A DNA stretch of 14,283 nt from Gallionella sp. GTDB taxonomy: Bacteria > Pseudomonadota > Gammaproteobacteria > Burkholderiales > Gallionellaceae. A program made the position numbers and the translations under genes. Below, piece after piece: positions 1 to 14,283 of the stretch (position 1 is the first letter of the stretch; each line of letters begins with the position of its first letter). Location of the stretch: positions 1 to 14,283 of the forward strand of contig JANYHX010000002.1 in NCBI GenBank assembly GCA_025362155.1. Direction: 5' to 3'. A model generated the notes under the pieces. The model searched no databases and had not been told where the DNA came from. It was given only the letters and a program-made list of their open reading frames with translations.

Positions 1-796
1 TGGCATGGTCGGCACGAAACAACGCGCCATAGCCCACTTCATCACCGGCGCGCAACTCCTGAACGGCAATAATGCGACTACTCAAGGTCATCGCAGGCTT
101 AAGTCCTAATTGTTGCGCGCTGTATTTTTCTCCATTTCCCGGGGCAAAGGGCGACGCGCCATATAGCATAATGCCGGGGCGCACCCAGTCGGCGTGGGTG
201 GCGGGATAACGTAGCAATGCAGCGGAATTTGCCATGGAGCGCGCCACGCGATAAGACGCCGCCAGGTCGTTAAATATGGCCAGTGGCTCCGACACTCCGC
301 GTGCCTCGTCAGCATGGGCGAAATGAGTCATCAAGGTGATGTCTCGCACTGCGCGATGGTGGCGTAATTGATCCATTATCTGCGCCACTTGTTGCGGTAC
401 AAAACCCAAGCGATTCATGCCGGTATTCACTTTCAGCCAGACATCAAGTTTCCCGCTATGCGGATAGGCGTCCAGCATGGCGATCTGCCACGCACTATGG
501 ATCACAACGGTTAAATCAAATTCTGCGATAACCGGTAAATCTTCCGCATTGAAAAAACCTTCCAGCAGCAAAATAGTCTGGCGAAAACCCGATTCGCGCA
601 AACGCACCGCATCCTGGATATCCAGCAGTGCAAACCCGTCCGTCGCAGCCAATCCCTCGGCGGCACGCATCAACCCATGCCCGTACCCATCCGCCTTGAT
701 GACAGACATAATGCGCGCAGAAGTGGCGCGGCGCGCCACATGGAGATTATTCTCCAGCGCGTTCAAATCAATATAAGCTTGTATAGGGCGTGGCAT
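1..796 (-). CDS. alr: Alanine racemase, PLP-dependent (partial, C-terminus outside window)
   Basis: Interconverts L- and D-alanine in the cytoplasm, supplying D-Ala for peptidoglycan. Reading from an ATG at 796, 265 codons are present of a family usually near 355-370, and the frame is still open at the window edge. The PLP-binding lysine is K34 in the motif VIKADGYGHG; the RPGIMLYG segment (phosphate and Arg contact region) and GYGALFRAD, with the second catalytic base Tyr, lie near the truncated end. The fold is the N-terminal TIM barrel plus the start of the C-terminal beta domain. No strong Shine-Dalgarno lies before the ATG, but the N-terminus (MPRPIQAYIDLNALENNL) starts where the family normally does. 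It is divergent from lplT, a neighbour pairing I recall from betaproteobacteria. Whether it is the biosynthetic (alr) or catabolic (dadX) type cannot be told here; the absence of dadA nearby favours alr. Confidence 0.95.
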   Translation of the reverse strand, partial: MPRPIQAYIDLNALENNLHVARRATSARIMSVIKADGYGHGLMRAAEGLAATDGFALLDIQDAVRLRESGFRQTILLLEGFFNAEDLPVIAEFDLTVVIHSAWQIAMLDAYPHSGKLDVWLKVNTGMNRLGFVPQQVAQIMDQLRHHRAVRDITLMTHFAHADEARGVSEPLAIFNDLAASYRVARSMANSAALLRYPATHADWVRPGIMLYGASPFAPGNGEKYSAQQLGLKPAMTLSSRIIAVQELRAGDEVGYGALFRADHA

Positions 797-830
797 GGAA
801 ACTGACTTAGTGCAACATAATAAAATTGGA

Positions 831-872
831 TATAGACATGAATAATAGCAGGGGCAAGGCTTTCATGTTATA
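831..872. promoter_or_regulatory. Imperfect inverted repeat in the alr/lplT divergent gap
   Basis: ACATGAA (836-842) and TTCATGT (862-868) are perfect inverted 7-bp arms with a 19-bp spacer. Skipping one base (G835), the outer TATA (831-834) pairs with TATA (869-872), giving 11 pairs per arm. The right arm overlaps a TATAAA (869-874) that is the best -10 candidate for lplT, though no good -35 is visible. On the minus strand TATTAT (822-817) is a possible alr -10. The symmetry in a divergent promoter region could mark an operator, but AT-rich gaps yield such repeats by chance. Confidence 0.35.
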
Positions 873-903
873 AAACGAACTGTCAATTTGAACCTTGTGC
901 TGA

Positions 904-2142
904 ATGAATTTCGGTTTTTACATCATCCTCGCGGCACAGTTTTTTTCCGCGCTTGCAGATAACGCCCTGCTGTTCGCCGCCATTTCTTTATTGCAATATT
1001 TGCACGCACCGGATTGGCATACGCCGGTATTGCAAGAAGCGTTTATTTTTTCCTACATCGTATTGGCTCCTTTCGTGGGTGCATTCGCCGACTCGTTGCC
1101 CAAAGGTCGGGTGATGTTTATCAGCAATAACATCAAAATTCTGGGCTGCCTCTCCATGTTGTTCGGCGTCAACCCCCTGCTCGCTTACGCCTTGGTTGGA
1201 TTAGGGGCGGCGGCTTATTCCCCCGCAAAATATGGCATTCTTACTGAATATTTGCCCGCGGATAAATTGGTGTTGGCCAACAGCTGGATGGAGGGCTTGA
1301 CTGTGCTTGCCATTGTGTTGGGTGCCATCATCGGTGGCGTATTCATCAGCCCCACCATTGCCGAACCGATGCTGAAGTGGTGGGACGTGCCATTCCTCGA
1401 CACCGGCATCGACACTCCGCCAGAATTGGCAATTTCAATTATTGTCGGAATTTATATTATCGCTGCCTGGTTCAATCTCTACATCCCGCGCGTGGCGATA
1501 GACCACAAACCGCTCAGTCGCAATCCTGTTTCCCTGACACATGATTTTTGGCATTCCTTCAAATTACTATGGAAAGATCCACTGGGGCAGGTTTCGCTCG
1601 CCGTCACTACCTTGTTCTGGGGTATCGGCGCCACATTGCGCTTGCTGGTACTCAGCTGGGCAGGGCTGGCGCTCCATTACGACATGACCCGAGCAGCCGC
1701 ATTAACCGCATGGGTGGCGGTCGGCATCGCCATAGGCGCGATGCTGGCGGCGAAATTTGTCAAGTTGCAACATTCGGTGAAAGTGCTGCCGGTCGGCATT
1801 GCCATGGGTTTGATGGTGCTGGTGATGATTCCTATCACCAACAGTTTGCTGGCCACACTGCTGTTAATTGTGATCGGTGCGATGGGCGGCTATTTCGTGG
1901 TGCCGATGAATGCGCTGCTGCAACATCGCGGCCACTTGCTAATGGGCGCCGGTAGTTCTATCGCGGTACAGAACTTTAACGAGAATCTGAGCATTTTCGT
2001 TATGCTGGGACTGTATGCCGTTATGGAAAAATTGGAACTCAACATCTACATTATCATTCTGGTATTCGGTTTGCTCTTGGCTGGCATCATGGCTGCGCTC
2101 TACCGGCGTCATGGGCATGATCAGGACCATGGGCAAATGTAG
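904..2142 (+). CDS. lplT: Lysophospholipid transporter LplT (MFS)
   Basis: A 412-residue major-facilitator protein that flips lysophospholipids across the inner membrane for re-acylation. The N-terminus (AAQFFSALADNALLFAAISLL) matches the LplT signature, with the conserved Asp-Asn in the first membrane helix. GAFADSLPKGRVMFISN at about residues 60-76 is the MFS motif between helices 2 and 3, and the rest is hydrophobic in a way that fits 12 helices. Length is close to E. coli LplT (397). The ATG at 904 is the first possible start and gives the expected N-terminus, but it lacks a clear Shine-Dalgarno. The C-terminal tail is His/Asp-rich. In enterobacteria lplT sits beside aas, the 2-acyl-GPE acyltransferase; no aas is present here, so the acylating partner must lie elsewhere. 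It converges with the DNA glycosylase gene, 33 bp away, with no convincing terminator between them. Confidence 0.9.
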   Translation: MNFGFYIILAAQFFSALADNALLFAAISLLQYLHAPDWHTPVLQEAFIFSYIVLAPFVGAFADSLPKGRVMFISNNIKILGCLSMLFGVNPLLAYALVGLGAAAYSPAKYGILTEYLPADKLVLANSWMEGLTVLAIVLGAIIGGVFISPTIAEPMLKWWDVPFLDTGIDTPPELAISIIVGIYIIAAWFNLYIPRVAIDHKPLSRNPVSLTHDFWHSFKLLWKDPLGQVSLAVTTLFWGIGATLRLLVLSWAGLALHYDMTRAAALTAWVAVGIAIGAMLAAKFVKLQHSVKVLPVGIAMGLMVLVMIPITNSLLATLLLIVIGAMGGYFVVPMNALLQHRGHLLMGAGSSIAVQNFNENLSIFVMLGLYAVMEKLELNIYIIILVFGLLLAGIMAALYRRHGHDQDHGQM

Positions 2143-2175
2143 GCTTCCGAGAAGTTCAGCAGAGCTCCAAGCAAG

Positions 2176-2958
2176 TTACGCGTTTTTATCTGTTACCTGT
2201 GCCATCACCTTAACCGCAAAACACATATCCTGCCACGCCTTGGCCTTTTCGGTTGGACTGCGCAGCAAGTAAGCCGGATGATAGGTGACGATCAATGGTA
2301 TGCCGTGATAATCATGCTGCGCATTGCGCAAACTGGCGAGAGTCGCCTCCTGGCCGAGTAACGCATTCGAGGCAACCTTGCCCAAAGCCACGATTAGCTT
2401 AGGTTGAAGGAGTTCGATCTGGCGTTGCAGATACGGCAGACACTGCGCAATCTCATTCGTTGCCGGAGTGCGATTATTGGGCGGGCGGCACTTAACGATA
2501 TTGGCGATATAAACACTTTGGCCGCGCTTGAGCTTTATCGCTGCCAGCATGCTATCCAGCAACTTGCCCGCCTGTCCCACGAACGGTTCGCCCTGCACAT
2601 CTTCATCCGCGCCTGGCCCTTCACCGACAAACAACCAGTCGGCTTTCTCCTCGCCTACGCCGAACACCGTTTGTGTACATCCGGCGCGCAGCTTACATGC
2701 GGTACAGCCGGTCACTTGCTGCTTAAGTTCAGACCAGTTTAAATTGCCCCATTCAGATTCGGATTGCCCCGACTTCCCAAACCCAGGCTTCCTGAATACC
2801 ACAGCTTCATCCTGGGACACCGCCTCTAAAATTGTTGGCGCACTCGGTTCAGTCAGGTGTCCCGCAGGCTCTTGCACCTTATCTGGAACAGACTGCTCGC
2901 GCCGTTTCCACAACGGGTAAAGATTCAGCTCGCGCAAAATCGCCTCGCCCCTATCCAT
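2176..2958 (-). CDS. Family 4 uracil-DNA glycosylase (4Fe-4S)
   Basis: Removes uracil from DNA to start base excision repair. The 260-residue protein has motif A as GEGPGADEDVQGEPFVG (about 112-128) and motif B as HPAYLLR (227-233). Four cysteines suit the iron-sulfur cluster: C85 and C88 (CTACK), C157 (KCRPP) and C173. The C157-C173 spacing of 16 matches the pair known from thermophile family 4 enzymes. About 75 residues precede the catalytic domain, beginning with an ILRELNLYPLW segment also seen in other proteobacterial members; the linker after it looks disordered. The ATG at 2958 directly follows the rimI stop (TAAATG), with AGGA about 8 bases upstream, so it is the last gene of the ispD operon. 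Such proteins are sometimes annotated as phage SPO1 DNA polymerase-related. Confidence 0.92.
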   Translation of the reverse strand: MDRGEAILRELNLYPLWKRREQSVPDKVQEPAGHLTEPSAPTILEAVSQDEAVVFRKPGFGKSGQSESEWGNLNWSELKQQVTGCTACKLRAGCTQTVFGVGEEKADWLFVGEGPGADEDVQGEPFVGQAGKLLDSMLAAIKLKRGQSVYIANIVKCRPPNNRTPATNEIAQCLPYLQRQIELLQPKLIVALGKVASNALLGQEATLASLRNAQHDYHGIPLIVTYHPAYLLRSPTEKAKAWQDMCFAVKVMAQVTDKNA

Positions 2959-3432
2959 TTATCTTTCCTGTCCCTTGCCTGCATCTGACCATTTACTGCT
3001 GGTCAAGTCGCACGCCATCATCACCGCATCCTCCTTGTCATGGTCATTTTGATAGTATCCGCGCCGTATTCCAATCTCGGCAAAACCCAGGCTGCGATAT
3101 AAAGCAATCGCTGCGATATTGGAAGGACGCACTTCGAGAAACACGCGGCGCGTATTTTTTTGACGTGCGGCATTCAGAATTTCACGCAGCATCAATCGTC
3201 CCAGACCTTTGCGCTGCTGCCCTGCTGCCACAGCAATATTCAATAACTCGGCTTCGTCCAGCACCGGCATCAACACCGCATAAGCCCGTATTTCGTCATC
3301 CTGCTCATCCACGCGACACTCATAGCCATGGTTCAACGCATCGGTAAAGTTTCCACAGGTCCATGGATAAGCCTGGATCGCTTGTTCAATCTTCAGTACC
3401 GTATTCACATCCCCCAGTGTCATGAAGCGCAT
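2959..3432 (-). CDS. rimI: Ribosomal protein S18-alanine N-acetyltransferase RimI
   Basis: A GNAT-family enzyme that acetylates the N-terminal alanine of ribosomal protein S18 using acetyl-CoA. With the ATG at 3432 it has 157 residues (E. coli 148). The acetyl-CoA loop QQRKGLG is at 72-78, and the family segments LDEAELLNIAV (58-68), FLEVRPSN (98-105) and AAIALYRSLGF (107-117) are clear. E100 and Y112 keep the 12-residue spacing of the E. coli catalytic pair E103/Y115. The C-terminal extension (about 144-157) is not conserved as far as I know. The start overlaps the tsaB stop by one base (TGATG). A TTG one codon earlier (3435) is possible but less likely. The tsaB-rimI pairing is common in proteobacteria and supports the RimI call over a generic GNAT. 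Confidence 0.93.
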   Translation of the reverse strand: MRFMTLGDVNTVLKIEQAIQAYPWTCGNFTDALNHGYECRVDEQDDEIRAYAVLMPVLDEAELLNIAVAAGQQRKGLGRLMLREILNAARQKNTRRVFLEVRPSNIAAIALYRSLGFAEIGIRRGYYQNDHDKEDAVMMACDLTSSKWSDAGKGQER

Positions 3433-4112
3433 CAACGCTGCTGTCTTTCACTGGTTTTCAAGGCCACCTTGTCGCGCAAATACAGCGGCAAGGCCTCCGC
3501 CGCATCCACGCCACGCCCGAGGGCAAATTGCACTGCGCCGAGGGCGGCTATTGCTGCGGCCTGAGGTACGGCAGCACCATTACTACCTTGCAAATGTCCA
3601 TCGTATCTTGCCTCCAGCACGGCATCATACGCGGCGAAACCACTGCCCACACCGAACCAGTCACCGCCCACAACAGGTGGTGCATATTCCGGTTTGCACA
3701 AACACGGCTCACTCACCGTAATCCAGCCATCATGCTGCCTTTCATACACCGCGTGATAAATCTCGCCCATGCGCGCATCCAGCGCGGCAATCACACGGGA
3801 TTTTTCTGAAGCTTCGGCCAGCGCTTCCAGCGTACATACGCCGACCACTGTAAGATTCGCGCCTAGCGCCAGACCCTGTGTCACCCCGCATGCAATGCGC
3901 ACCCCGGTGAACGAACCCGGCCCCATGCCGAATGCAACGCCATCGAGTTGCGCCAGCTTTACCGCAGCCTCGTGCAGCAATGCGTCCAGCATCGTCACCA
4001 ACGTCTCGGAATGTTTCTGCCCGACCCGCTCGCAACGCTCAATGACAATCCCGTCCTGCCACAGCGCAACCGAACAATATTCGGTGGAGGTATCCAACGC
4101 CAAAATACGCAT
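3432..4112 (-). CDS. tsaB: tRNA t6A modification complex subunit TsaB
   Basis: TsaB is the scaffold partner of TsaD in the TsaBDE complex, which with TsaC makes N6-threonylcarbamoyladenosine at position 37 of ANN-decoding tRNAs. It is 226 residues (E. coli 231) from the ATG at 4112. The N-terminus [17 protein letters not shown] is the ASKHA nucleotide-binding fold opening; GQKHSETLVTMLDALL and FGMGPGSFTGVRIACG are the diagnostic TsaB helix and loop. TsaB lacks the metal-binding His pair of TsaD, consistent with a non-catalytic role. The start overlaps the ispF stop by one base (TGATG) with a modest GGA about 8 bases upstream; an in-frame TTG at 4115 is a weaker choice. It lies inside the ispD operon between ispF and rimI. 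Confidence 0.94.
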   Translation of the reverse strand: MRILALDTSTEYCSVALWQDGIVIERCERVGQKHSETLVTMLDALLHEAAVKLAQLDGVAFGMGPGSFTGVRIACGVTQGLALGANLTVVGVCTLEALAEASEKSRVIAALDARMGEIYHAVYERQHDGWITVSEPCLCKPEYAPPVVGGDWFGVGSGFAAYDAVLEARYDGHLQGSNGAAVPQAAAIAALGAVQFALGRGVDAAEALPLYLRDKVALKTSERQQR

Positions 4113-4588
4113 CAATTATCCGTTACAAGCAACGCCACCGCCTGCGCCGCAATACCCTCGCCGCGTCCGGCAAAACCGAGCATTTCTGTAGTGGTTGCTT
4201 TCACGTTGATGGCGCTTTTCTCCATATGCAGATCGGCGGCAATGTTGGCAATCATCTGAGGAATATGCGTCGCCATCTTCGGTGCTTGCGCAATGATGGT
4301 CGCATCTACATTGCTGATGCGAAACCCCTGTTCACGCACCAGATGAGTGACTTCACGCAACAGGATACGGCTGTCGATATTTTTGAATTTGGCATCAGTG
4401 TCAGCAAAATGCCGCCCGATATCGCCTAGTGCCGCCGCGCCCAGCAGCGCATCGCAAATCGCGTGTAACAGCACATCCGCATCAGAATGGCCGAGCAGGC
4501 CTTTGTCATGGGGAATTTCCACCCCGCCGATGATTAATTTACGGCCCTCTACCAGCTGATGCACGTCGTAACCTTGACCAATGCGCAT
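4112..4588 (-). CDS. ispF: 2-C-methyl-D-erythritol 2,4-cyclodiphosphate synthase IspF
   Basis: The fifth MEP-pathway enzyme: cyclises CDP-methylerythritol 2-phosphate to the cyclodiphosphate with loss of CMP, as a metal-dependent homotrimer in the cytoplasm. From the ATG at 4588 it is 158 residues (E. coli 159). The metal ligands Asp8, His10 (GYDVHQL) and His42 ([12 protein letters not shown]) then carry exactly the E. coli numbers. Other signatures are [12 protein letters not shown] and the C-terminal [19 protein letters not shown]. An earlier ATG at 4594 overlaps the ispD stop as ATGA and would add two residues. I prefer 4588 because AAGGA (4601-4597) is 8 bases before it but only 2 bases before 4594. 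It directly follows ispD, as in many proteobacteria, where the two act two steps apart with IspE. Confidence 0.96.
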
Positions 4589-4590
4589 AT

Positions 4591-5274
4591 TCATTTTCCT
4601 TGTTGGGTCAGCAATAACTCCGCGAGCAGCCTATCCTGTGGATAGGTCACTTTAAAATTAGTCGAATCACTCAACACGAGTTTAGGCTGCAAGCCCAATG
4701 CTTCGACTGCCGACGCATCGTCGGTAAAATTACTAGCCTGCTGCAAAGCCTGTACCAACAGTCCGGCGCGGAACATCTGCGGCGTTTGCGCCTGCCATAA
4801 TTGTTCGCGGTTCTCAGTGCGCTTGATACGGTCATTGCCATCCGCACGCTTCAGCGTATCTGCCACCAGCACAGCAAGAATGCCCCCCACCGCATCATCC
4901 CGCAATTCCGCGATCAGTCTGGACAGTTGTGTCTGTGTCAAACAGGGACGCGCCGCATCATGCACCAGCACCCAGTCATCCGGTTCCAGTTCAGAAGCCA
5001 GCAAACCGTTCAGTACCGTATCCGAACGCTTTTCCCCTCCGCAATACAAAGGCTGCAGCTTTTCCCCAAAAAACGACCAGTCGTAGCCATGAAACAAATG
5101 GTCGTCAGGCGCAAGCACCACAAACACCGTGCTGATCTCTGCACTGGCACACAATGTTTTAAGCGCGTGAAACATCATTGGCTGCCCGGCCAGCTGCAGA
5201 TACTGCTTGGGTAAATCATGACCCATGCGCGCACCAAAACCAGCGGCAGGAACCAAGGCGTGAAATTCAGACAT
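4591..5274 (-). CDS. ispD: 2-C-methyl-D-erythritol 4-phosphate cytidylyltransferase IspD
   Basis: The third MEP-pathway step: transfers CMP from CTP to methylerythritol 4-phosphate. From the ATG at 5274 the protein has 227 residues (E. coli 236). The nucleotidyltransferase loop PAAGFGARM is at 9-17, and R16 and K23 (LPKQYL) correspond to catalytic Arg20 and Lys27 of E. coli. [13 protein letters not shown] (79-91), LVHDAARP (103-110) and the later TQTPQMF and TDDASAVE segments complete the family pattern. An in-frame TTG at 5304 would add ten residues (MPDIFITILP) with GGGG upstream, but the [12 protein letters not shown] start fits homologues better, even though the Shine-Dalgarno before 5274 is poor. 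It is the first gene of the five-gene minus-strand operon and is divergent from a diguanylate cyclase gene. Confidence 0.95.
4597..4601 (-). promoter_or_regulatory. Ribosome binding site that favours the second ATG of ispF
   Basis: On the minus strand AAGGA ends 8 bases before the ATG at 4588 and only 2 bases before the ATG at 4594. Spacing therefore favours 4588, and the metal ligands then take E. coli numbering (Asp8, His10, His42). The site lies inside the last codons of ispD. Confidence 0.5.
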
Positions 5275-5312
5275 AGGCAGGATTGTAATGAATATATCAG
5301 GCAAATGCCCCG

Positions 5313-5338
5313 CTATATTCTTCTCTGTTAGAATATAG
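5313..5338. promoter_or_regulatory. Perfect 9-bp inverted repeat between ispD and the diguanylate cyclase gene
   Basis: CTATATTCT (5313-5321) and AGAATATAG (5330-5338) are exact reverse complements separated by 8 bp, so arm centres are 17 bp apart. This is about 1.5 helical turns and could suit a dimeric regulator. If ispD is transcribed from the TATAAT just outside it, the repeat covers the start of transcription and could also form a hairpin in the ispD leader RNA. It lies in the only gap (85 bp) shared by the two divergent genes. No binding protein can be named from the sequence. Confidence 0.45.
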
Positions 5339-5339
5339 A

Positions 5340-5345
5340 ATTATA
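5340..5345 (-). promoter_or_regulatory. Candidate -10 box for the ispD operon
   Basis: The minus strand reads TATAAT, a perfect consensus -10, 65 bases before the ispD ATG. No good -35 (TTGACA) is visible 16-18 bases upstream; that position falls at the first codons of the divergent gene. On the plus strand the overlapping TATAAA (5342-5347) is too close to the ATG at 5360 to make a normal leader for the diguanylate cyclase gene. Confidence 0.35.
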
Positions 5346-5359
5346 AAGCAATTAAGATC

Positions 5360-6280
5360 ATGAATATCTCCATCCGCAATATTGATGCCGCATTACGTCG
5401 ACGCTCCCCCTATGAAATCAAGTCGGCGGTGCTCTTTTTAGTGATCATTATTTCTGTTGCGGCCTACCTGTTGGGATATGAAATATCCACTTCAACTTTC
5501 TTTTTGATACCTATTGCGCTGGTGACCTGGTATGGCAATTCCCGCTTAGGAATTTATTTCGCCCTGCTTTGTACCTTCATTGGGCATTTGATAGACACCC
5601 TTTTTGCCTCTCACATCTATAGCCATCCCTGGATTCCCTATGGGAACACCATTGTGCGGCTGGGATTATTTTTAATCACCACCCAATTTCTTACGCTGTT
5701 AAAGGTTCAATTGAATAGCGAGAAAGGTCTGTCCAGAACGGATAGTCTGACCGGGGTAATGAATGTCCGCGGCTTCGCCGAAGTAGCAGAAAAAATGTTC
5801 GAACTGGGCGCGCGCCACGGCAGACCGACGTGTCTGGCTTACATCGATATGGATGATTTCAAGAAAGTGAACGATGAGTTAGGTCATAGCACCGGCGATC
5901 AGGTACTGCAAACTGTAGGCGAAGTATTTCTTAACTCGGTGCGTAAAACGGATGTGGTATGTCGGCTGGGCGGTGATGAGTTTGCCATCGCGTTACCCGA
6001 AACCAATGAGGCAGGCGCAAAATCTGCGTTCAATAAACTCAAAAAAAATCTTGCTGAAGCCATGCAAGAACATAACTGGGTGGTCAGTTTCAGCATCGGT
6101 GTTATTTCCTTCGACTTGCCGCCGGCTGATTTCGATGAAGCGCTCAAGCTGGCTGATGCCCTGATGTATCAAGTCAAAAAGAACGGTAAAAATAATATTC
6201 AATTTGCGCATTATCCCCCAGAGAAAATAATTACCCCTGAATCCAGAAGAAATCTCCGTGGTATTTTCCACCCTGAATAA
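5360..6280 (+). CDS. Membrane-anchored diguanylate cyclase (GGDEF)
   Basis: A 306-residue protein predicted to make cyclic di-GMP from two GTP at the inner membrane. The N-terminus (about 20-115) has four hydrophobic segments, roughly 22-40, 45-59, 63-82 and 96-114, with very short loops and no sizeable periplasmic domain; I cannot assign it to a named sensor family. The GGDEF domain runs from about 125 to 285: a slightly divergent opening motif DSLTGVMNVRGF, the metal-binding YIDMDDFKKVND (161-172), and a perfect GGDEF at 204-208. The inhibitory I-site RxxD is intact as RKTD (195-198), five residues before GGDEF, so product feedback inhibition is likely. It is active-looking by motif. The Shine-Dalgarno before the ATG at 5360 is weak. 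It is divergent from ispD and 90 bp upstream of mfd, and looks more AT-rich than mfd by eye. Confidence 0.92.
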   Translation: MNISIRNIDAALRRRSPYEIKSAVLFLVIIISVAAYLLGYEISTSTFFLIPIALVTWYGNSRLGIYFALLCTFIGHLIDTLFASHIYSHPWIPYGNTIVRLGLFLITTQFLTLLKVQLNSEKGLSRTDSLTGVMNVRGFAEVAEKMFELGARHGRPTCLAYIDMDDFKKVNDELGHSTGDQVLQTVGEVFLNSVRKTDVVCRLGGDEFAIALPETNEAGAKSAFNKLKKNLAEAMQEHNWVVSFSIGVISFDLPPADFDEALKLADALMYQVKKNGKNNIQFAHYPPEKIITPESRRNLRGIFHPE

Positions 6281-6325
6281 AAGACACCTTTTACAAGCAA
6301 TACCAAGAAACTTCCCTCCATCCCT

Positions 6326-6331
6326 TATAAT
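6326..6331 (+). promoter_or_regulatory. Candidate -10 box for mfd
   Basis: A perfect TATAAT in the gap between the diguanylate cyclase stop (6280) and the mfd ATG (6371). No recognisable -35 is seen at 16-18 bp spacing. Transcription from here would give a leader of about 30 bases and would let mfd be expressed apart from the upstream gene. No intrinsic terminator for the upstream gene is apparent in 6281-6325. Confidence 0.4.
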
Positions 6332-6370
6332 CCGCGCCCTTAACTTAGGAACTACCTTGGCGCGATTTTC

Positions 6371-9300
6371 ATGCTGTTCTCGTCCCCCCATCCCCGTCCA
6401 CGTTACTCGCAATTAATCGGCTCATCCGATGCGCTGGCTCTGGCGCAATTTGCGGCCAAGAATTTGCCGCTGGCCCCTTCTCCTCTGGTAATCATCGCCG
6501 CTAATGCACAGGAAGCCCAGCGGCTGGTGGAAGAGATTCCCTACTTCGATTCCCAGCTGCGTGTGCATTTATTGCCGGACTGGGAGACGCTGCCCTACGA
6601 CCATTTCTCGCCGCATCAGGATTTGATCTCCGAGCGGCTGGCGACGCTACATCATGTACGCAGCCTGTCTTGCGACGTGCTGGTGGTGCCAGTGACCACC
6701 GCGCTGTACCCGTTTCCGCCGGTAGAATATCTGGCCGCCTTTACCTTTTTCCTGAAGCGCGGCGAAAAGCTCGACCTGGCCAAGCTGCGTGAGCAAATGA
6801 CCTTTGCCGGCTACAACCATGTGCAGCAAGTGTTGTCGCCGGGCGAATACTGCGTGCGCGGCGGCATTATCGATCTGTTTGCGATGGGCAGCGTGCTGCC
6901 GTATCGCATTGACCTGTTCGACGACGAGATCGAAACCATCGCCACTTTCGATGTGGACACGCAGCGCTCGCTATATCCGGTGCCGGAGATACGCTTGTTG
7001 CCGGCGCGCGAATTTCCGCTCGACGATGCCGGGCAGGCACGCTTCCGCCAGAATTTCCGCGTACGTTTCGAAGGCGATCCCTCCCGGTCGCCCATATACA
7101 AAAACGTCAGCAAAGGCAACGCCCCGGCAGGCATTGAGTATTACCTGCCGCTATTCTTTGAAAAGACTGCCACGCTGTTCGACTACCTGCCTAAGGCTGC
7201 CACGCTATGTCTGCATCACGATGTGCACGCAGCCATCGCCACCTTTAGCAAAGATGCCGCATCGCGCTACAACCTGCTCAGAGGCGATCCGCAACGCCCG
7301 CTGCTGGAGCCGCGTGAATTATTTATGGATGCGGAGCAGTTTTTTATTCGGATAAAAGAGTTCGCTCGCCTCGACGTTCTTCCCTCTCCCATCGGGGGAG
7401 GGATTGAGGGAGGGGGTGACCGTTCAGCAAAACCCACCCCCTGCCCCACCACCACTCTCCCCGAAATTGCGGTAAATCGCCGCGCCGAAATCCCGACACA
7501 AACGTTCCAGAATTTTCTGCAAACTTATACAGGGCGCGTGCTACTGCTTGCGGATAGCCTGGGACGGCGCGAGATTATTTCCGGCTATCTGAACGAATAC
7601 GGCTTGTCGCCTGCGCTATGCGAAAACTATGCGCAGTTCGTTTCCGGCCAAGAAAAGTTCATGCTCAGCGTGGCCGCGCTGCAAAACGGATTTATGCTCC
7701 CCAATGACAATCTCGCCATTGTCACCGAGACCGAACTCTACGCCGCCCAGCCGCGCAGCCGCGCCGCGCGCGCCGCGAAGAAAAGCAACGTGGAAGGCAT
7801 GTTGCGCGATTTGTCCGAGCTCAAGGTTGGCGATCCCGTCGTGCATGAGCAACATGGCATAGCGCGTTACAGCGGGCTGGTCAATCTTGATCTGGGCGAA
7901 GGCGAGGGAGAATTCCTGCTGTTGGAATATGCTGGATCAGATAAACTCTACGTGCCCGTCGCGCAGCTGCACGTCATCAGCCGCTACAGCGGTGGAGCGC
8001 CGGAAACCGCGCCGCTGCACAAGCTGGGCACACAAGCGTGGGACAAGGCAAAGCGCCGCGCCATGCAACAGGTGCGTGATACCGCTGCCGAACTGCTGAA
8101 TTTATACGCGCAGCGCGCCACGCGCAAGGGCCACGCTTTCAAGCTGAGTCCACACGATTACGAAGCGTTCGCCGCCGGTTTCGGCTTTGAGGAAACACCG
8201 GATCAGGCCGCCGCAATCACCGCCGTCATCAATGATCTGCAAAGCGGTAAACCGATGGACAGGCTGATTTGCGGCGATGTGGGTTTTGGTAAAACCGAAG
8301 TGGCATTGCGCGCCGCCTTCGTCGCGGCGATGGACGGCAAACAGGTGGCTGTGCTGGTGCCCACCACTTTGCTGGCCGAACAGCATTTCCAGAATTTCAG
8401 CAACCGCTTCGCCGACCTGCCGGTCAAGATCGCCGAACTGTCGCGCTTCCGTTCCGCGAAGGAACAGGCGCAGTCGATGAAGGACATGGAGGACGGCAAG
8501 CTCGACATCATCATCGGCACACACAAACTGATCCAGAAAGGCGTGAAGTTCCATAACCTCGGGCTGGTCATCATCGATGAGGAACACCGATTCGGCGTGC
8601 AGCAAAAGGAACGATTGAAAGCATTACGCTCTGAAGTGGATGTCTTAACGCTGACCGCCACGCCTATCCCACGCACCTTGGCGATGTCGCTGGAAGGCCT
8701 GCGCGATTTCTCCATCATCGCTACTGCGCCGCAACGGCGGCTGTCGATCAAGACCTTCGTCGCACAGGCCAGTGACGGCATCATCCGCGAGGCGGTGCTG
8801 CGCGAATTGAAGCGCGGCGGGCAGATTTATTTTCTGCACAACGAAGTAGACACCATCGCCAACGTAGCGGAGAAGCTGACCTTGCTGTTACCCGAAGCAC
8901 GCATTCGCATCGCACACGGGCAGATGGGCGAGCGCGATCTGGAACAGGTGATGCGCGATTTTTACCAGCAGCGTTTCAATGTGCTGCTGTGCACTACCAT
9001 CATTGAAACCGGCATCGATATACCCACAGTCAATACCATCATCATGAATCGCGCCGACCGTTTCGGCCTGGCACAATTACACCAACTGCGCGGCCGCGTC
9101 GGACGCTCGCACCACCAGGCTTACGCCTATTTACTGGTGGAAACCGAGGCCCTTACTGCGCAGGCAAAGAAACGGCTGGAGGCGATACAGGCGATGGAGC
9201 AGCTCGGCAGTGGCTTCTATCTTGCGATGCATGATCTGGAGATACGCGGTGCCGGCGAGGTACTGGGCGAATCGCAAAGTGGCGAGATGCAGGAGATCGG

Positions 9301-9826
9301 TTTCTCGCTATATACCGACATGCTGAATGCCGCCGTCGCTTCGTTGCGCCAGGGACGCGAACCGGACATGGCGCACCCGTTGGGCATCACCACCGAGATT
9401 AACTTGCATACACCCGCCCTGCTGCCCAGCGACTATTGCGGTGACATCCACCAGCGCCTGATGCTGTATAAGCGGCTGGCAAATTGCGCCACAGCGGAAG
9501 AACTGGAAGAGATGCAACAGGAATTAATCGACCGCTTCGGCCTGTTGCCGGAACCCGCGCAAACGCTGCTCGACAGCCATCGCCTGCGCATTCTCGCCAA
9601 ACCGCTGGGCATCAGCAAGGTGGATGCATCCGGCGAGGTAATTCAAATTCAATTCGTACCTCATCCGCCTATCGACCCGCTGCGTGTGCTGCATCTCATC
9701 CAGACCAAACGCCACTACAAACTGAGCGGCCAGGATAAGCTGCGCATAGAATTAAAATTTGGCGATATCAGCCAGCGCGTGCTCGCCATTAAAAACTTTT
9801 TTAATGAGTTAAAGCAGCAGGTTTAG
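6371..9826 (+). CDS. mfd: Transcription-repair coupling factor Mfd
   Basis: An ATP-dependent translocase that removes RNA polymerase stalled at DNA lesions and recruits UvrA. It is full length at 1151 residues (E. coli 1148). In order: a UvrB-like N-terminal module (LPDWETLPYDHFSPHQD, PAGIEYYLPLFF), the RNA polymerase-interacting domain opening with VGDPVVHEQHGIARYSG, then the RecG-like motor. The Walker A motif GDVGFGKT is at 635-642, the DEEH box at 736-739, TATPIPRT is motif III, and GRVGRSHHQAYAYLL belongs to the translocation motif region. The C-terminal TRCF domain follows (LLPSDYCGDIHQRLMLYKRL, ELIDRFGLLPEPA). Residues 338-359 are encoded by a foreign-looking hairpin sequence in the linker before LPEIAVNRRAEIP. 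The ATG at 6371 has no close Shine-Dalgarno (AGGA is 20 bases upstream), but an in-frame stop at 6341 and the conserved N-terminus support it. Confidence 0.97.
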   Translation: MLFSSPHPRPRYSQLIGSSDALALAQFAAKNLPLAPSPLVIIAANAQEAQRLVEEIPYFDSQLRVHLLPDWETLPYDHFSPHQDLISERLATLHHVRSLSCDVLVVPVTTALYPFPPVEYLAAFTFFLKRGEKLDLAKLREQMTFAGYNHVQQVLSPGEYCVRGGIIDLFAMGSVLPYRIDLFDDEIETIATFDVDTQRSLYPVPEIRLLPAREFPLDDAGQARFRQNFRVRFEGDPSRSPIYKNVSKGNAPAGIEYYLPLFFEKTATLFDYLPKAATLCLHHDVHAAIATFSKDAASRYNLLRGDPQRPLLEPRELFMDAEQFFIRIKEFARLDVLPSPIGGGIEGGGDRSAKPTPCPTTTLPEIAVNRRAEIPTQTFQNFLQTYTGRVLLLADSLGRREIISGYLNEYGLSPALCENYAQFVSGQEKFMLSVAALQNGFMLPNDNLAIVTETELYAAQPRSRAARAAKKSNVEGMLRDLSELKVGDPVVHEQHGIARYSGLVNLDLGEGEGEFLLLEYAGSDKLYVPVAQLHVISRYSGGAPETAPLHKLGTQAWDKAKRRAMQQVRDTAAELLNLYAQRATRKGHAFKLSPHDYEAFAAGFGFEETPDQAAAITAVINDLQSGKPMDRLICGDVGFGKTEVALRAAFVAAMDGKQVAVLVPTTLLAEQHFQNFSNRFADLPVKIAELSRFRSAKEQAQSMKDMEDGKLDIIIGTHKLIQKGVKFHNLGLVIIDEEHRFGVQQKERLKALRSEVDVLTLTATPIPRTLAMSLEGLRDFSIIATAPQRRLSIKTFVAQASDGIIREAVLRELKRGGQIYFLHNEVDTIANVAEKLTLLLPEARIRIAHGQMGERDLEQVMRDFYQQRFNVLLCTTIIETGIDIPTVNTIIMNRADRFGLAQLHQLRGRVGRSHHQAYAYLLVETEALTAQAKKRLEAIQAMEQLGSGFYLAMHDLEIRGAGEVLGESQSGEMQEIGFSLYTDMLNAAVASLRQGREPDMAHPLGITTEINLHTPALLPSDYCGDIHQRLMLYKRLANCATAEELEEMQQELIDRFGLLPEPAQTLLDSHRLRILAKPLGISKVDASGEVIQIQFVPHPPIDPLRVLHLIQTKRHYKLSGQDKLRIELKFGDISQRVLAIKNFFNELKQQV
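7382..7447. repeat. In-frame palindromic G/C-rich element inside mfd
   Basis: Two adjacent hairpins are visible. The first pairs CCCTCTCCC (7382-7390) with GGGGGAGGG (7394-7402): nine pairs, one of them G-T, round a 3-base loop. The second pairs AGGGGGTG (7411-7418) with CACCCCCT (7435-7442) perfectly round a 16-base loop, and extends by three pairs past one bulged G. The sequence encodes a low-complexity peptide (PSPIGGGIEGGGD, then KPTPCP) at residues 338-359, in a linker where E. coli Mfd is about 9 residues shorter. Similar CCCTCTCCC/GGGGAGGG palindromes occur between genes as dispersed repeats in many proteobacteria, so a repeat copy read in frame is a reasonable inference. Other copies would lie outside this window. 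Confidence 0.55.
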
Positions 9827-9833
9827 ATGACTG

Positions 9834-9843
9834 TGGTTAACCA
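9834..9843. repeat. 10-bp perfect palindrome after mfd
   Basis: TGGTTAACCA lies eight bases after the mfd stop codon in the gap before the binding-protein gene. It has no loop and no following T-run, so it is not an intrinsic terminator; it could be a small operator or chance. The rest of the gap (9827-9906) holds a weak promoter candidate, TTGCTG (9855-9860) with AACAAT (9878-9883) at 17 bp spacing, which matches consensus poorly. Confidence 0.25.
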
Positions 9844-9906
9844 GGACAATTAAGTTGCTGAAAGAGGTCGTCTCTGAAACAATAGGCCTCAAAAAACAAT
9901 AAGCTG

Positions 9907-9912
9907 AGAGGA
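9907..9912 (+). promoter_or_regulatory. Ribosome binding site pointing to an ATT start codon
   Basis: AGAGGA is the only strong Shine-Dalgarno upstream of the binding-protein gene. Six bases after it comes ATT (9919), followed by a second ATT (9922). No ATG, GTG or TTG occurs in frame between the upstream stop (TAG at 9883-9885) and the TTG at 9946, which is 33 bases away from this site and too far to be served by it. Confidence 0.6.
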
Positions 9913-9918
9913 AATAAC

Positions 9919-10914
9919 ATTATTCGTCTATACACTACGCTCATTTTGTGGATGAGCTTGAGTTTGATCGCGCACGCCGAAACCATCGTGCTAGCGGTTC
10001 CCGGGCCAGGCAGTGTGGCCTTCTTGCCCATTCATCTGGCCAAAGCCATCAATGCGGATCATGCCGCCGGGCTGGAGCTCAAACTGCGCTATTTTAATGG
10101 GGGCCCTTTAGCGGTGCGTGACCTGATGAGCAACAACAGCGATTTCGTGGCTGCGGGCCTGCCGGCGATAGCAGCCAGTCGTGCTGCAGGTATGTCCGTT
10201 TTCGCTATTGGCCAACTCAGCCAGTCAGCGATGTTCGAATTGCTATTGCGAGCTGATCTGAAAGGTCAGGTACATAGCATCGCCCAACTCAAGGGGAGGC
10301 GTATCGGCACCAGTACCAGCACCTCGGAACGTTCGATGGGACGCATGATGGCAGAGTATCTCCTGCAGCGTGCCGGACTCAATTCCGGCGACGTACAGTT
10401 CATCTCGACCGGGCATAATCGCGAATCACAGAGTGCCGCCCTGGCCAGTGCGACCGCTGACGCCATCATCGCGGATGAACCCTTTGCTTCGGAACTGGTT
10501 GCGCAAGGCGTGGCAATCAGGCTGGCAGATTTGTATTCTCAAAAACAAAGCGCGGGGTTGTTCGGCGGTTCTATCGTGCGCGCTGCTTTGGCCACCCGTG
10601 AAGACATCTATATACAACGCCCGGCAACAGTGAAAAAAGTGCAGCACATGTTCGATCTCGCCTTGCAATGGCTGTCCACGCATTCCGCCGAGGAAGTAGC
10701 TGATAAACTTGTCGGGCAGCCGGGCTTTGATGCCGCCCATAGCAAATTTTTGGTCGAGGTCTTGAAACGTAACCCGGGTATCTTTCCCAGCCGAATCACC
10801 TGGGATGCACCAGCGGTGGCAACAACAGAACGTTTCTTCCATGAAGTGGCAGCCAGTACTGAGGAGTCGAAGTTGTTATTTTCCGATTTTGTGCGCGGCG
10901 CGCCCTTGAATTAG
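9919..10914 (+). CDS. Periplasmic substrate-binding protein (NMT1/SsuA type), likely signalling partner
   Basis: A predicted secreted solute-binding protein of the NMT1/THI5-SsuA-NrtA class: VLAVPGPGSVAFLPIHLAK opens lobe 1, the GGPLAVRDLMSNNSDFVAAG segment follows, then IAQLKGRRIGTSTSTSERS and the ADAIIADEPFASEL segment. Read from ATT at 9919 it has 331 residues and an ideal signal peptide: MIRLYTT, a hydrophobic core, and AHA before E21 (signal peptidase I type; no lipobox Cys). Starting at TTG 9946 (322 residues) or ATG 9952 leaves a signal of about 11 residues or fewer with no positive charge. No ABC permease or ATPase lies beside it; the next gene is a GGDEF-EAL sensor read seven bases later. 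I infer that it delivers a ligand signal to that sensor rather than feeding a transporter. The ligand cannot be read from sequence; sulfonates, nitrate, pyrimidines and aromatic acids are all bound within this class. Confidence 0.82.
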   Translation: MIRLYTTLILWMSLSLIAHAETIVLAVPGPGSVAFLPIHLAKAINADHAAGLELKLRYFNGGPLAVRDLMSNNSDFVAAGLPAIAASRAAGMSVFAIGQLSQSAMFELLLRADLKGQVHSIAQLKGRRIGTSTSTSERSMGRMMAEYLLQRAGLNSGDVQFISTGHNRESQSAALASATADAIIADEPFASELVAQGVAIRLADLYSQKQSAGLFGGSIVRAALATREDIYIQRPATVKKVQHMFDLALQWLSTHSAEEVADKLVGQPGFDAAHSKFLVEVLKRNPGIFPSRITWDAPAVATTERFFHEVAASTEESKLLFSDFVRGAPLN

Positions 10915-10916
10915 GG
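10913..10916 (+). promoter_or_regulatory. Ribosome binding site overlapping the upstream stop, sets a TTG start
   Basis: AGGG begins inside the TAG stop (10912-10914) of the binding-protein gene and lies five bases before TTG at 10922. No ATG occurs in frame before the first membrane helix, so TTG is the credible start. The arrangement suggests translational coupling of the two proteins. Confidence 0.6.
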
Positions 10917-10921
10917 CTATC

Positions 10922-13663
10922 TTGAAAACCTCATTCCGCCCAAGCAGCACCCCTGCCACACTGCGACAGACATTCAGTCGCAGATTATTCCTGTTGCTGG
11001 GTTTGTTTTCATTGGTAATGAGTGTCTTCATAGTAGTGATTTATCAGCATCAAACCGACCGCCTGAATCGCTCCGTGTTGTCCGCCAACCTCCTTCATTT
11101 AATGCCGCGCATTCAGGATCAACAAAGAATATGGGATGATGATGCCGATCATTTGCTCGACGTTATGGAATGGTCAGGCTTGCTCAATTTGGCAGAACCG
11201 TCACGCACGGTAAAGTTGCAGGCATTTTTTACTGCCCAGACCGAAAGTATGGGATTTGAAGGCATTGCTATCACCGATGCAGTCAGCGGAAAGTTGTTGT
11301 TCGATTTCTGGAACCATGCCGAAAGACCCGATTTCCAGAATGCCCTCACAGAAAATCAACCATTCTGGTATGACGATCAGCACGCCATCCTGTACACCAA
11401 AGTAAAAAAGTCTACGCAAGCCTATGGACATGTCCTGCATAGCTACTTTTTCAAGGCATGGGATAGCGCCATGCTGCGCCGCTTGACTTTTCCCGATACA
11501 ACCACTTTCATTTCGCTGGGCACTCAACCCTTATTGAGTTCGGCTGGAAATTTGGCTATGGCATCCTCACCCCCCTACGCCGGAGAATATGCGGAGCATA
11601 TCTTGAATGGCGTTAAATATCAGGAGGGCAGCATCAAGCTAACGGATATAGCCATTGCGGATGACCGTCGCTTGCCCTTAAAGATGACGGTTAGATCGCC
11701 GATTAAGAATATCCTCCCCATGACTTTGGTCCTGAGCGCATCTGTCGGCGTTACCATATTATTTGGTGCCTTATTGTTCGTGGTCTTTGGTGTTTGGCTA
11801 AGACGCCTGGGCAAAAGGCTGGATGAACTGGCCAACGCGGCGTTACATTTCAAAAATAACCAGGCGAGCGGAATTACCAAGGAAACCCGGCGTTTGTTGC
11901 AGCTTGCCGATGCCCGGAAAGAGGATCAGGTCAGTGTGGTTGCCTACGAGTTATCAAACTTGATGGCGAGCGCCACACAACGCGATGAAGAACAACGCGC
12001 TTATCTGCAAACCATGGATCTACTACAGGATGCGGTGATTGAATTCACTCCCGAAGGCGACTTGCTGCGCGCCACCGATGCATGGAAAACCCTCACCGGC
12101 AAGGATGACCTGGCTTCCGGCGGTCTCATGAACTGCGTACATCCGGAAGATGTCCATGAATTGCTGGAGCAACTTAGCGCGCTGACCCACGAGCAGAAAA
12201 ATCAAATCAACATACGGTTCCGCTTGCTGCGTGAGGGGGATGCCAACAAACATTACTGGGTTGAAGGTCGATTTGCTCCCGTCAAGCAGAATGACAAAAT
12301 CACCAGTATTCGCGGGGTGGTGCGCGACATCACCCATACTTATCGGCAGGAACGCCAGATCAGCCATATGGCCTTACATGATGCGCTGACCGATTTGCCC
12401 AATCGGGTTTTGCTGGAAGACCGCCTGGAAATGTCGATCTCCCGCGCGGCACGCAACGGGCAACGCGTGGCATTAGGCTTTATCGATCTCGATCATTTCA
12501 AACAGGTGAATGATAATTTTGGTCATAAACTCGGCGATCGGTTGCTTAAAGAAGTTACAAAAAAATTACTCAGCGCACTGCGCGGGACGGACACTTTGTC
12601 GCGCTGGGGTGGTGATGAGTTTGTGGTGTTGTGCCCCGACTTGATCAACATGGATAATGCGCGCGATATTACGCAAAAATTGTCTTTGCTGGCACGCGAA
12701 AACATCACCATTGATGGCACTGATTTCCCGTTTACCTTTAGCGCAGGTTTTGCCGTATATCCGGATGATGCGAACAACAGCGAAATGCTGTTGGCGCAAG
12801 CGGATCGCGCAATGTTCTATGCCAAGGCACAGGGACGCAATAATATCCAGTTCTTTAATACCATTGCGGCCAAGGAAAGTGGGCGGCAGTCGTTTTATAT
12901 TCAAAGCCGTTTGATGCAAGCAATACACAGCAACCAGATCCAGTGCTGGTTGCAACCCCTGATATCGGCACGAACCGGGCAAGTGGTCGGCGCGGAAGCC
13001 TTGGCTCGCTGGCAAGAGCCGGAACAAGGATGGATATCCCCGGCAGTTTTTATTCCGATGGCAGAAAGCCTGGGATTGATCGACAAGCTGGGACAATCCG
13101 TATGGCAGCAGGCATTACATGCCCTGACCCTGTGGCCCGCCCATCATCGTTTATCGGTGAATCTGTCCAAGCGACAATTGTTTTCCAACACCATAGTCAT
13201 GCAACTCTGTGATGACCTCGCGCTGGCCAACATTAAACCGGAGCGCATCATGCTGGAGATTACTGAAAGTATCGCGCTTTCCGATGTGACCCATGCGCGG
13301 GAACGTATCGCCGAACTTGATTCCAAGGGTTTTGGCATTTCGATCGATGATTTTGGCGTGGGCTATTCCTCGTTGTCACAATTGCATGAAATTCCCGCCG
13401 ATGAGCTCAAGCTGGATATATCTTTTGTTAAGCGCATCCATGAGAAGCGCGGTTTTAGTATGGCAACAGCTATCATTGCCATCGCCAAATCATTGGATCT
13501 GGAATGCGTAGCGGAAGGAGTTGAGGATCTCCCCACCGCTGACTTGCTTGTCTCCATGGGGGTAGAATTATTGCAGGGTTACCATTTCGCCAAGCCCATG
13601 CCCATTAATGATTACCTGGCTTGGCTGGCAACTCAGCCTGAATTTTCCACGATGTCTGAATAG
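10922..13663 (+). CDS. Membrane PAS-GGDEF-EAL cyclic di-GMP synthase/phosphodiesterase with periplasmic sensor
   Basis: A 913-residue inner-membrane signalling protein. A cytoplasmic basic start leads to helix 1 (about 22-41), a periplasmic domain of some 220 residues (43-264) that I cannot assign to a family with confidence, helix 2 (about 265-292), a HAMP-like linker (to about 355), a PAS domain (about 362-475), GGDEF (484-647) and EAL (656-905). GGDEF is perfect at 563-567, with substrate motif FIDLDHFKQVND and an intact I-site RGTD (554-557). EAL motifs look complete: EALARW (692-697), N747, E779 and E782 (LEITES), D809-D810 (IDDFGVGYSSL), K830 (ELKLD), E865 (AEGVED) and Q885. Both synthesis and breakdown are thus possible; which dominates is not readable. 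It starts at TTG with AGGG overlapping the stop of the binding-protein gene, so the two are probably made together. Confidence 0.93.
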   Translation: MKTSFRPSSTPATLRQTFSRRLFLLLGLFSLVMSVFIVVIYQHQTDRLNRSVLSANLLHLMPRIQDQQRIWDDDADHLLDVMEWSGLLNLAEPSRTVKLQAFFTAQTESMGFEGIAITDAVSGKLLFDFWNHAERPDFQNALTENQPFWYDDQHAILYTKVKKSTQAYGHVLHSYFFKAWDSAMLRRLTFPDTTTFISLGTQPLLSSAGNLAMASSPPYAGEYAEHILNGVKYQEGSIKLTDIAIADDRRLPLKMTVRSPIKNILPMTLVLSASVGVTILFGALLFVVFGVWLRRLGKRLDELANAALHFKNNQASGITKETRRLLQLADARKEDQVSVVAYELSNLMASATQRDEEQRAYLQTMDLLQDAVIEFTPEGDLLRATDAWKTLTGKDDLASGGLMNCVHPEDVHELLEQLSALTHEQKNQINIRFRLLREGDANKHYWVEGRFAPVKQNDKITSIRGVVRDITHTYRQERQISHMALHDALTDLPNRVLLEDRLEMSISRAARNGQRVALGFIDLDHFKQVNDNFGHKLGDRLLKEVTKKLLSALRGTDTLSRWGGDEFVVLCPDLINMDNARDITQKLSLLARENITIDGTDFPFTFSAGFAVYPDDANNSEMLLAQADRAMFYAKAQGRNNIQFFNTIAAKESGRQSFYIQSRLMQAIHSNQIQCWLQPLISARTGQVVGAEALARWQEPEQGWISPAVFIPMAESLGLIDKLGQSVWQQALHALTLWPAHHRLSVNLSKRQLFSNTIVMQLCDDLALANIKPERIMLEITESIALSDVTHARERIAELDSKGFGISIDDFGVGYSSLSQLHEIPADELKLDISFVKRIHEKRGFSMATAIIAIAKSLDLECVAEGVEDLPTADLLVSMGVELLQGYHFAKPMPINDYLAWLATQPEFSTMSE

Positions 13664-13687
13664 CTTAACAGTAGCCCAAGGGAATTC

Positions 13688-14283
13688 ATGTTTCGACTAT
13701 TACGCTATTTCTCCATTGCAAGCCTGGCTTCCATCATATTGGCGGCGGTTGCACTCGGCACATTCCACGAGTTATCGGAAAAAAGCCAGTTGCTTAGATT
13801 TGGCGAAAGCCGAAACGTTGTGCTCGCGCAGGATTTTTCCAATCATATCTGGCCGCAGTTTCGCAGTTTTGCCAATACCGCGAAGCCTCTAGACACAACA
13901 ACCCTGCGTCACCATCCCGAGCTTGTAAAACTATCACTCAGTGTGCGCGAGGCGGTGCGTAACACCGCCACAGTCGAAGTAGAAATTTATCAACTGGACG
14001 GACGCAAGCTGTTTTCCACTAGTGCAGCGCAAATCGGCATAGGCGATAACGGTAATCAGGGTTTTGTCTCGGCAAAACGAGGGCAGGTATTCAGCGAAAT
14101 CAACCACTACGACCAGTCCGCCTCCCTTGACGGAGAAGTCGTAAATCGGGATGTGTTGTCGAGCTATATCCCTGTGCGCAGCAGCGAAATTGCACCCATC
14201 GATGGCGTGATGATGATCGCCACCGACATCACCGACCTTGTGGCAAGTAATGCCCGCCAACAGCGTCTGGTTACCGCCAGTGT
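13688..14283 (+). CDS. Membrane sensor protein with periplasmic domain (partial, N-terminus only)
   Basis: The frame opens at ATG 13688, with AAGGGA a few bases upstream, and is still open at the window edge after 198 complete codons. Residues 1-25 (MFRLLRYF then a hydrophobic run through VALG) form an uncleaved membrane anchor. Residues about 28-185 look like an extracytoplasmic ligand-sensing (PDC/Cache-like) domain, with VEIYQLDGRKLFST and YIPVRSSEIAPIDGVMMIATDITDL resembling the beta-strands of such folds. A second helix would be expected to start right at the cut edge (QQRLVTAS). The output domain is missing, so it may be a histidine kinase, a GGDEF/EAL enzyme or another transducer. It lies 24 bp after the GGDEF-EAL gene on the same strand and is probably in the same operon. 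Confidence 0.8.
   Translation, partial: MFRLLRYFSIASLASIILAAVALGTFHELSEKSQLLRFGESRNVVLAQDFSNHIWPQFRSFANTAKPLDTTTLRHHPELVKLSLSVREAVRNTATVEVEIYQLDGRKLFSTSAAQIGIGDNGNQGFVSAKRGQVFSEINHYDQSASLDGEVVNRDVLSSYIPVRSSEIAPIDGVMMIATDITDLVASNARQQRLVTAS

Follow-up and report, generated by a model that had tools for sequence, protein, structure and literature searches.

An NMT1-Class Solute-Binding Protein and a Double-Cache GGDEF-EAL Sensor Encoded as a Conserved Gene Pair in Gallionella: A Probable Two-Part Receptor

Results

The Gene Pair and Its Products

We have analyzed a 14,283-nucleotide stretch of DNA from Gallionella sp. (assembly GCA_025362155.1, contig JANYHX010000002.1, positions 1 to 14,283 of the forward strand; hereafter the window), in which the gene of a secreted solute-binding protein (SBP) of the NMT1 class directly precedes that of a membrane sensor with PAS, GGDEF and EAL domains. 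Since the two genes have stayed side by side in distantly related bacteria, the most likely role of the binding protein is to report an extracellular chemical to the enzyme. A preliminary description of this DNA had already recognized an NMT1-class SBP gene with no transporter genes beside it and, seven bases on, a TTG-started sensor with a periplasmic domain of about 220 residues and PAS, GGDEF and EAL domains; the open reading frames, Pfam matches and fold models bear this out. The features of the pair are as follows.

9919..10914, forward strand: NMT1-class periplasmic SBP with predicted signal peptide (open reading frame, Pfam, fold model); start at ATT 9919 or TTG 9946
10915..10921, forward strand: gap of 7 bases between the SBP and sensor genes (sequence)
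10922..13663, forward strand: membrane sensor with PAS-GGDEF-EAL output, catalytic motifs intact, RxxD I-site (open reading frame, Pfam, motif alignment)
11048..11713, forward strand: periplasmic double-Cache domain, approximately residues 43-264, proposed SBP docking site (fold model; no Pfam family)
11714..12001, forward strand: second transmembrane helix and HAMP-like helical linker, approximately residues 265-360 (secondary structure of the model; weak Pfam HAMP)
12371..12844, forward strand: GGDEF domain, residues 484-641 (Pfam)
12908..13597, forward strand: EAL domain, residues 663-892 (Pfam)

The SBP frame is open up to its stop codon at 10912-10914. The codon at 9919, previously taken as the start, is ATT, and the first ATG, GTG or TTG of the frame is TTG 9946, which gives a protein of 322 amino acids. 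As judged by eye, translation from 9919 yields a proper signal peptide (IIRLYTTLILWMSLSLIAHA-ETIV), whereas translation from 9946 leaves the n-region of the signal peptide almost absent. Given this signal peptide and an AGAGGA upstream of 9919, the gene may plausibly use a rare AUU start or carry a base error; the source genome is a fragmented bin of 330 contigs, 88% complete. The cleavage site, also read by eye, has no cysteine, and the product should therefore be a soluble periplasmic protein. It matches NMT1 (E = 3.5e-13), NMT1_2 (9e-8) and Phosphonate-bd (1e-6) in Pfam, and these families only. The fold model (predicted local distance difference test score, pLDDT, 93.7) is closest in the PDB to 3qsl (TMq 0.90), which is also the first match by sequence (E 5.8e-28); further down the structural list are SsuA (alkanesulfonate), a pyrimidine-binding protein, PqqT (pyrroloquinoline quinone, PQQ) and TauA (taurine). 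The ligands of these solved proteins, sulfonates, taurine, pyrimidines and PQQ, define only a search space for that of the SBP.

The sensor, of 913 amino acids, starts at TTG 10922. A Shine-Dalgarno-like AGGG (10913-10916), likely its ribosome-binding site, overlaps the SBP stop codon, which suggests translational coupling. Pfam assigns GGDEF (2e-44), EAL (2e-65) and PAS_9 (2e-6) domains. The motifs RGTD-TLSRW-GGDEF and EALAR are intact, and EAL-domain residues E692, N747, E782, D809, D810, K830, E865 and Q885, which we take to be catalytic, are invariant in 11 of 11 aligned sensors. Judged by these motifs, the protein is a putative bifunctional enzyme of cyclic dimeric guanosine monophosphate (c-di-GMP). 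The membrane spans were read by eye, and the model places the periplasmic domain between the first long helix and a helix starting at model residue 266. The HAMP-like linker of the preliminary description is weakly supported: the model has the helix-link-helix shape, but Pfam HAMP is weak, being found in 5 of 47 members of the domain family with a best E of 0.032.

The Periplasmic Domain Resembles That of LuxQ

The periplasmic domain was modeled with confidence (pLDDT 91.9) as a double-Cache fold. In a second look at its structural matches the five best were LuxQ periplasmic domains, two of them solved together with LuxP, at a sequence identity of 11-12%. For the 47 domain members Pfam gave no sensor family in the periplasmic part, even at E 0.5, among the 25 of 31 families listed, and the Cache domain sequence, searched against the PDB, hit nothing but coiled coils or designed bundles, with a best E of 0.002 and outside the Cache part.

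The Pair Is Conserved and Stands Apart from Permeases

We searched 150 genomes of the same taxonomic family for the SBP with a cut-off of E <= 1e-3. Matches were found in 52, mostly weak; besides the window, seven are 57-69% identical to the SBP and three 31-34%. In all ten of these relatives a GGDEF-EAL gene lies directly downstream, in differing surroundings. Among the weaker hits, one SBP (L041) adjoins permease and ATPase genes and is not part of a pair, and another (L042) precedes a sensor having its own fused binding domain. At the latter locus, 7464-10062 encodes a further pair of neighboring binding protein and sensor, made up of an NMT1 protein outside this SBP family and then a protein with Phosphonate-bd and PAS domains, cut by the locus end.

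An alignment of the SBPs was then used to scan genomes of named species, and gave 79 loci, 80 with the window, these being the best 80 of 147 relatives; the same scan with a single SBP sequence returned no matches. A wide score gap divides the loci into 52 of the SBP family (the weakest, a fragment, at E 2e-58) and 28 outer ones (the strongest at 9.5e-46). A sensor with the same periplasmic domain lies directly downstream in 50 of the 52 family loci, window included, and in 0 of the 28 outer loci. A second domain profile was built from the downstream proteins themselves, and its fair test of recognition is confined to the 16 non-seed loci. Conversely, a same-strand ATP-binding cassette (ABC) permease within 4 kb was seen at 0 of the 52 family loci, where short contigs limit the 4-kb view, and at 25 of the 28 outer loci; three of the latter (L093, L112, L113) have neither sensor nor permease. 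The probes were two L041 genes picked by eye and later confirmed as BPD_transp_1 and ABC_tran. The ABC ATPase probe matched near two family loci, on the same strand at L058 and on the opposite one at L084. Of the two family loci that lack the sensor, L092 ends with its contig inside the SBP, and at L063 the first bases of the sensor gene give way to unrelated sequence that carries helix-turn-helix regulator genes; this clear break of the pair (8921-10865) is perhaps due to a mobile element. Three loci (L051, L078, L147) have two tandem family SBPs before one sensor, raising the question of two ligands or a paired SBP.

A sample of 398 genomes of the phylum (397 without the own genome) separated into the same two SBP groups (E <= 8.9e-104 versus E >= 4.7e-40). 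Not counting the own genome, a strong SBP was found in 18 genomes; every one of them also holds the sensor, which is adjacent at 17 of the 18 strong loci read. The three genome sets overlap and are not independent (L043 is the contig of G124, L081 that of G583). The nearest relatives on named records are metagenome bins of Gallionella, Gallionellaceae and Nitrosomonadales, and bins labeled as beta-, gamma- and alphaproteobacteria and as Magnetococcales contain the pair as well. The preliminary description had named two outcomes that would speak against it, homologues sitting mostly with permeases and a pair not kept as neighbors; the counts above went the other way in both respects. Distances among the SBPs and among the domains correlate (r = 0.86, 46 pairs), which shows co-inheritance rather than contact.

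Outputs Are Exchanged behind a Constant Pair

The 50 sensors downstream of family SBPs do not share one output. GGDEF-EAL is found in 23, including L057 of Rhodoferax lacus, GGDEF alone in 2, and a histidine kinase in 14 (9 with receiver domains), and 7 have none; the remaining four could not be assigned, three being cut by contig ends and one (L056) mis-framed. Pfam checks of the outputs cover 13 of the sensors, plus the window. On the SBP tree (46 rows) the output requires 7 changes, versus 19.5 in shuffles. A recent swap is seen between L069 and L073, of which one carries a kinase and the other GGDEF-EAL: their SBPs are 88% identical and sensor residues 1-300 69%, but the remainder only 25%. 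L073 and L068, both GGDEF-EAL, are similar along the whole sensor. Outputs are thus exchangeable behind a constant SBP/domain pair.

The seven output-less sensors (L075, L079, L080, L083, L084, L085 and L089, with L084 from Dechloromonas hankyongensis) form one supported clade and end after the linker. In L084 the sensor is followed by a protein of about 297 amino acids without Pfam match and then, on the other strand, by Reg_prop propeller proteins. After the hybrid kinase form of L071 (8920-13174) comes a response regulator of receiver-GGDEF type, and c-di-GMP may thus be reached by the kinase branch as well. The family GGDEF-EAL sensor of L039 (8914-12102) bears a C-terminal chemoreceptor zinc-binding (CZB) domain (E 6e-16).

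Discussion

A Proposed Two-Part Receptor

We consider it likely that the two genes encode a two-part receptor, in which the SBP senses the ligand and, by docking on the sensor's double-Cache domain, tunes c-di-GMP. The SBP would then be a dedicated sensing subunit and not part of a transporter. In the periplasm it would bind a small molecule, close around it and dock on the double-Cache domain much as LuxP does on LuxQ. Docking would shift the membrane-crossing helices, and the HAMP-like linker and PAS domain would relay the movement so as to tip the GGDEF-EAL output between synthesis and breakdown of c-di-GMP. Physical docking and ligand control are inferred, and the logic of NspS-MbaA is assumed for the switch, which could run in either direction. 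In V. cholerae, according to an excerpt of PMC8967002, closed NspS favors the cyclase of MbaA, and the NspS-free state favors the phosphodiesterase.

We give even chances to a broader proposal, that the NMT1-class SBP together with a LuxQ-like Cache domain of its own makes up a fixed plug-in input unit of Pseudomonadota, joined to dual c-di-GMP enzymes, cyclases, simple or hybrid kinases or, in one clade, no output. The NMT1 fold would here have left transport to become a dedicated sensor of a signal that is not imported, and the transmembrane protein of the output-less clade would have to signal via a partner in trans.

Evidence against the Receptor, and Alternative Explanations

A number of observations weigh against the two-part receptor. 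By Foldseek E-value, amino-acid chemoreceptor Cache domains outrank LuxQ, which leaves room for a Cache domain that binds its ligand directly. The distance correlation is in part plain co-inheritance, and r drops to 0.55 for deep pairs. The SBP family is sparse and therefore not essential: apart from the own genome, a strong SBP occurs in 18 of 397 genomes of the phylum and 3 of 368 of the class. One strong family SBP (L188) stands alone, facing a mechanosensitive-channel gene; the same genome has a normal pair as well. The sensor, too, occurs by itself. It is present in 15 of the 150 same-family genomes (own included), with the SBP adjacent in 11, lacking in 3 (G028, G098, G138) and hidden by a contig end in 1; among the 29 sensor loci read in the phylum sample the corresponding numbers are 18, 9 and 2. 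The 15 genomes whose sensor has no visible SBP have no strong SBP elsewhere (best E 5e-14). Since some sensors occur without the SBP, dependence on it is not absolute. In three of the SBP-less sensors (L171, L172, L173) the periplasmic Cache domain is largely missing and the transmembrane helices remain, which fits loss of function after SBP loss. The three SBP-less sensors from Gallionellaceae point the other way. A relaxed-selection test, in which "EAL" stands for residues 663-720 only, found no clear relaxation of their periplasmic domain. Invariant positions are kept at 24/28 and 25/28 (leave-one-out controls 0.78-1.0) and, in the third, at 20/28 (0.71, just below the controls); a Cache domain so largely kept does not fit loss of function after SBP loss.

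These sensors, with their largely retained domain, speak for the idea that the SBP is an orphan transporter component serving permeases elsewhere, that adjacency reflects only co-regulation, and that the Cache domain senses a ligand of its own. Cache domains often bind ligands directly, and those of chemoreceptors head the Foldseek list. SBPs may, moreover, lie apart from their transporter genes (PMC9602780, in excerpt). But the family SBPs go with this sensor domain (50 of 52 loci; outgroup, 0 of 28) and not with permeases, SBP and domain stay constant as the output changes, and the closest fold in the second look is that of LuxQ, on whose Cache domain a binding protein is known to dock. We therefore regard an orphan transporter component as unlikely.

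Much less probable still is a true NspS-MbaA homologue, that is, a receptor for polyamines with an SBP that only happens to score as NMT1. In the part of PMC9993111 that describes this system, from V. cholerae and Sinorhizobium meliloti, the SBP gene directly precedes a closely spaced GGDEF-EAL gene (the overlap of nspS with mbaA is 16 bp in V. cholerae and 3 bp in S. meliloti), MbaA is a two-transmembrane sensor with a periplasmic part of about 230 residues, and more than 200 homologous gene pairs are reported. Gene order, spacing and the two-transmembrane layout with GGDEF-EAL are therefore common to both. By the same excerpt, however, NspS is PotD-like and binds polyamines, and MbaA has SGDEF and no RxxD, whereas the window SBP does not test as PotD family, belongs to NMT1 by Pfam and is closest in fold to 3qsl, SsuA and the pyrimidine-binding protein, and its sensor has GGDEF with RxxD plus a PAS domain. 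The preliminary description was accordingly right in assigning the SBP to a class other than that of NspS, and its NspS-MbaA-like module survives as a similar gene pair; the best structural precedent is LuxP-LuxQ, and the outputs include histidine kinases. Finally, the ATT or poor TTG start of the SBP and the fragmented state of the genome might suggest that the pair is decaying, or has come together by chance, in a single metagenome bin. This is refuted by conservation of the pair, which excludes chance: linked sensors occur in the seven relatives with 57-69% SBP identity, the frames are open and the catalytic motifs intact.

Relation to Known Systems

Like LuxQ of Vibrio harveyi and V. cholerae, the sensor has, according to its model, a periplasmic double-Cache domain of LuxQ type, and the binding protein LuxP is the ligand subunit there, a role proposed here for the window SBP. 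LuxP belongs to a binding-protein class other than NMT1, and the window SBP did not test as LuxP class. LuxQ is a kinase/phosphatase; the window output is PAS-GGDEF-EAL and not a kinase, although kinases are present in the 14 family sensors noted above. NMT1-class SBPs of ABC transporters (SsuA, TauA and their kin; 3qsl) share the fold and Pfam family of the window SBP and differ in the company they keep, as the permeases of the next group outward show. In Salmonella, ArtI belongs to an arginine importer, and STM1987 is without EAL. Arginine-binding ArtI and the dCache_1 domain of STM1987 are both needed for the arginine response of c-di-GMP (PMC8846402, in excerpt). In the ScrA-ScrB-ScrC system of V. 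parahaemolyticus, periplasmic ScrB switches the dual GGDEF-EAL enzyme ScrC from the same operon (PMC10269520, in excerpt); no scrA-type signal synthase gene lies beside the window pair, which has mfd upstream instead.

The pair thus represents a new SBP/sensor family that is proposed to work like NspS-MbaA, ScrB-ScrC and LuxP-LuxQ and is assigned to none of them. SBP-driven receptors are common, at least 13 SBP families having been seen in that role (excerpts of PMC9602780 and PMC11113362), and control of GGDEF-EAL enzymes by SBPs is known from NspS-MbaA and ScrB-ScrC. As far as the papers listed in our literature searches show, what is new is an NMT1-class SBP in a receptor role, the unnamed LuxQ-like domain family, and output exchange behind a constant pair. 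These searches turned up no paper joining NMT1 and GGDEF and none, by title, on an NMT1 SBP with a periplasmic histidine kinase; for SBP-controlled c-di-GMP enzymes, only NspS-MbaA, ScrB-ScrC and ArtI-STM1987 came up.

Output exchange would make the family a natural experiment, in which one docking signal drives cyclases, phosphodiesterases and kinases, and as the docking domain has no Pfam entry, its sequence provides a handle for finding such receptors. Many Gallionellaceae are iron oxidizers, and in this group an extracellular cue feeding into c-di-GMP could bear on attachment, stalk or biofilm formation.

Genomic Surroundings

The window shows no ABC transporter gene among its proteins, six of which were scanned with Pfam and the others judged by eye; a protein of major facilitator superfamily (MFS) type is encoded at 904-2142, about 8 kb from the pair. 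The nearest gene upstream of the SBP is mfd. Promoter and terminator scans gave sites no more numerous than in shuffles. The neighbors of 16 loci, with genes called by codon usage and few of them Pfam-scanned, share no transporter, catabolic operon or target gene as judged by eye. At one of the family loci (L058, a Methylibium bin) a regulator of the metal-sensitive-repressor family, a zinc alcohol dehydrogenase and an esterase lie upstream of the SBP. They resemble a formaldehyde-detoxification operon, which, as a single case, we set aside as a hint to the ligand.

Two further genes in the window are of related type. At 5360-6280, between a gene read by eye as ispD and mfd, another membrane diguanylate cyclase is encoded (GGDEF, E 4e-38). 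Downstream of the pair a further membrane sensor gene begins (13688-14283) and is cut by the contig end. Its intact counterpart in three other loci (L031, L033, L034; 682-683 amino acids) follows the pair and matches GGDEF-EAL, so that two c-di-GMP sensors stand there in tandem.

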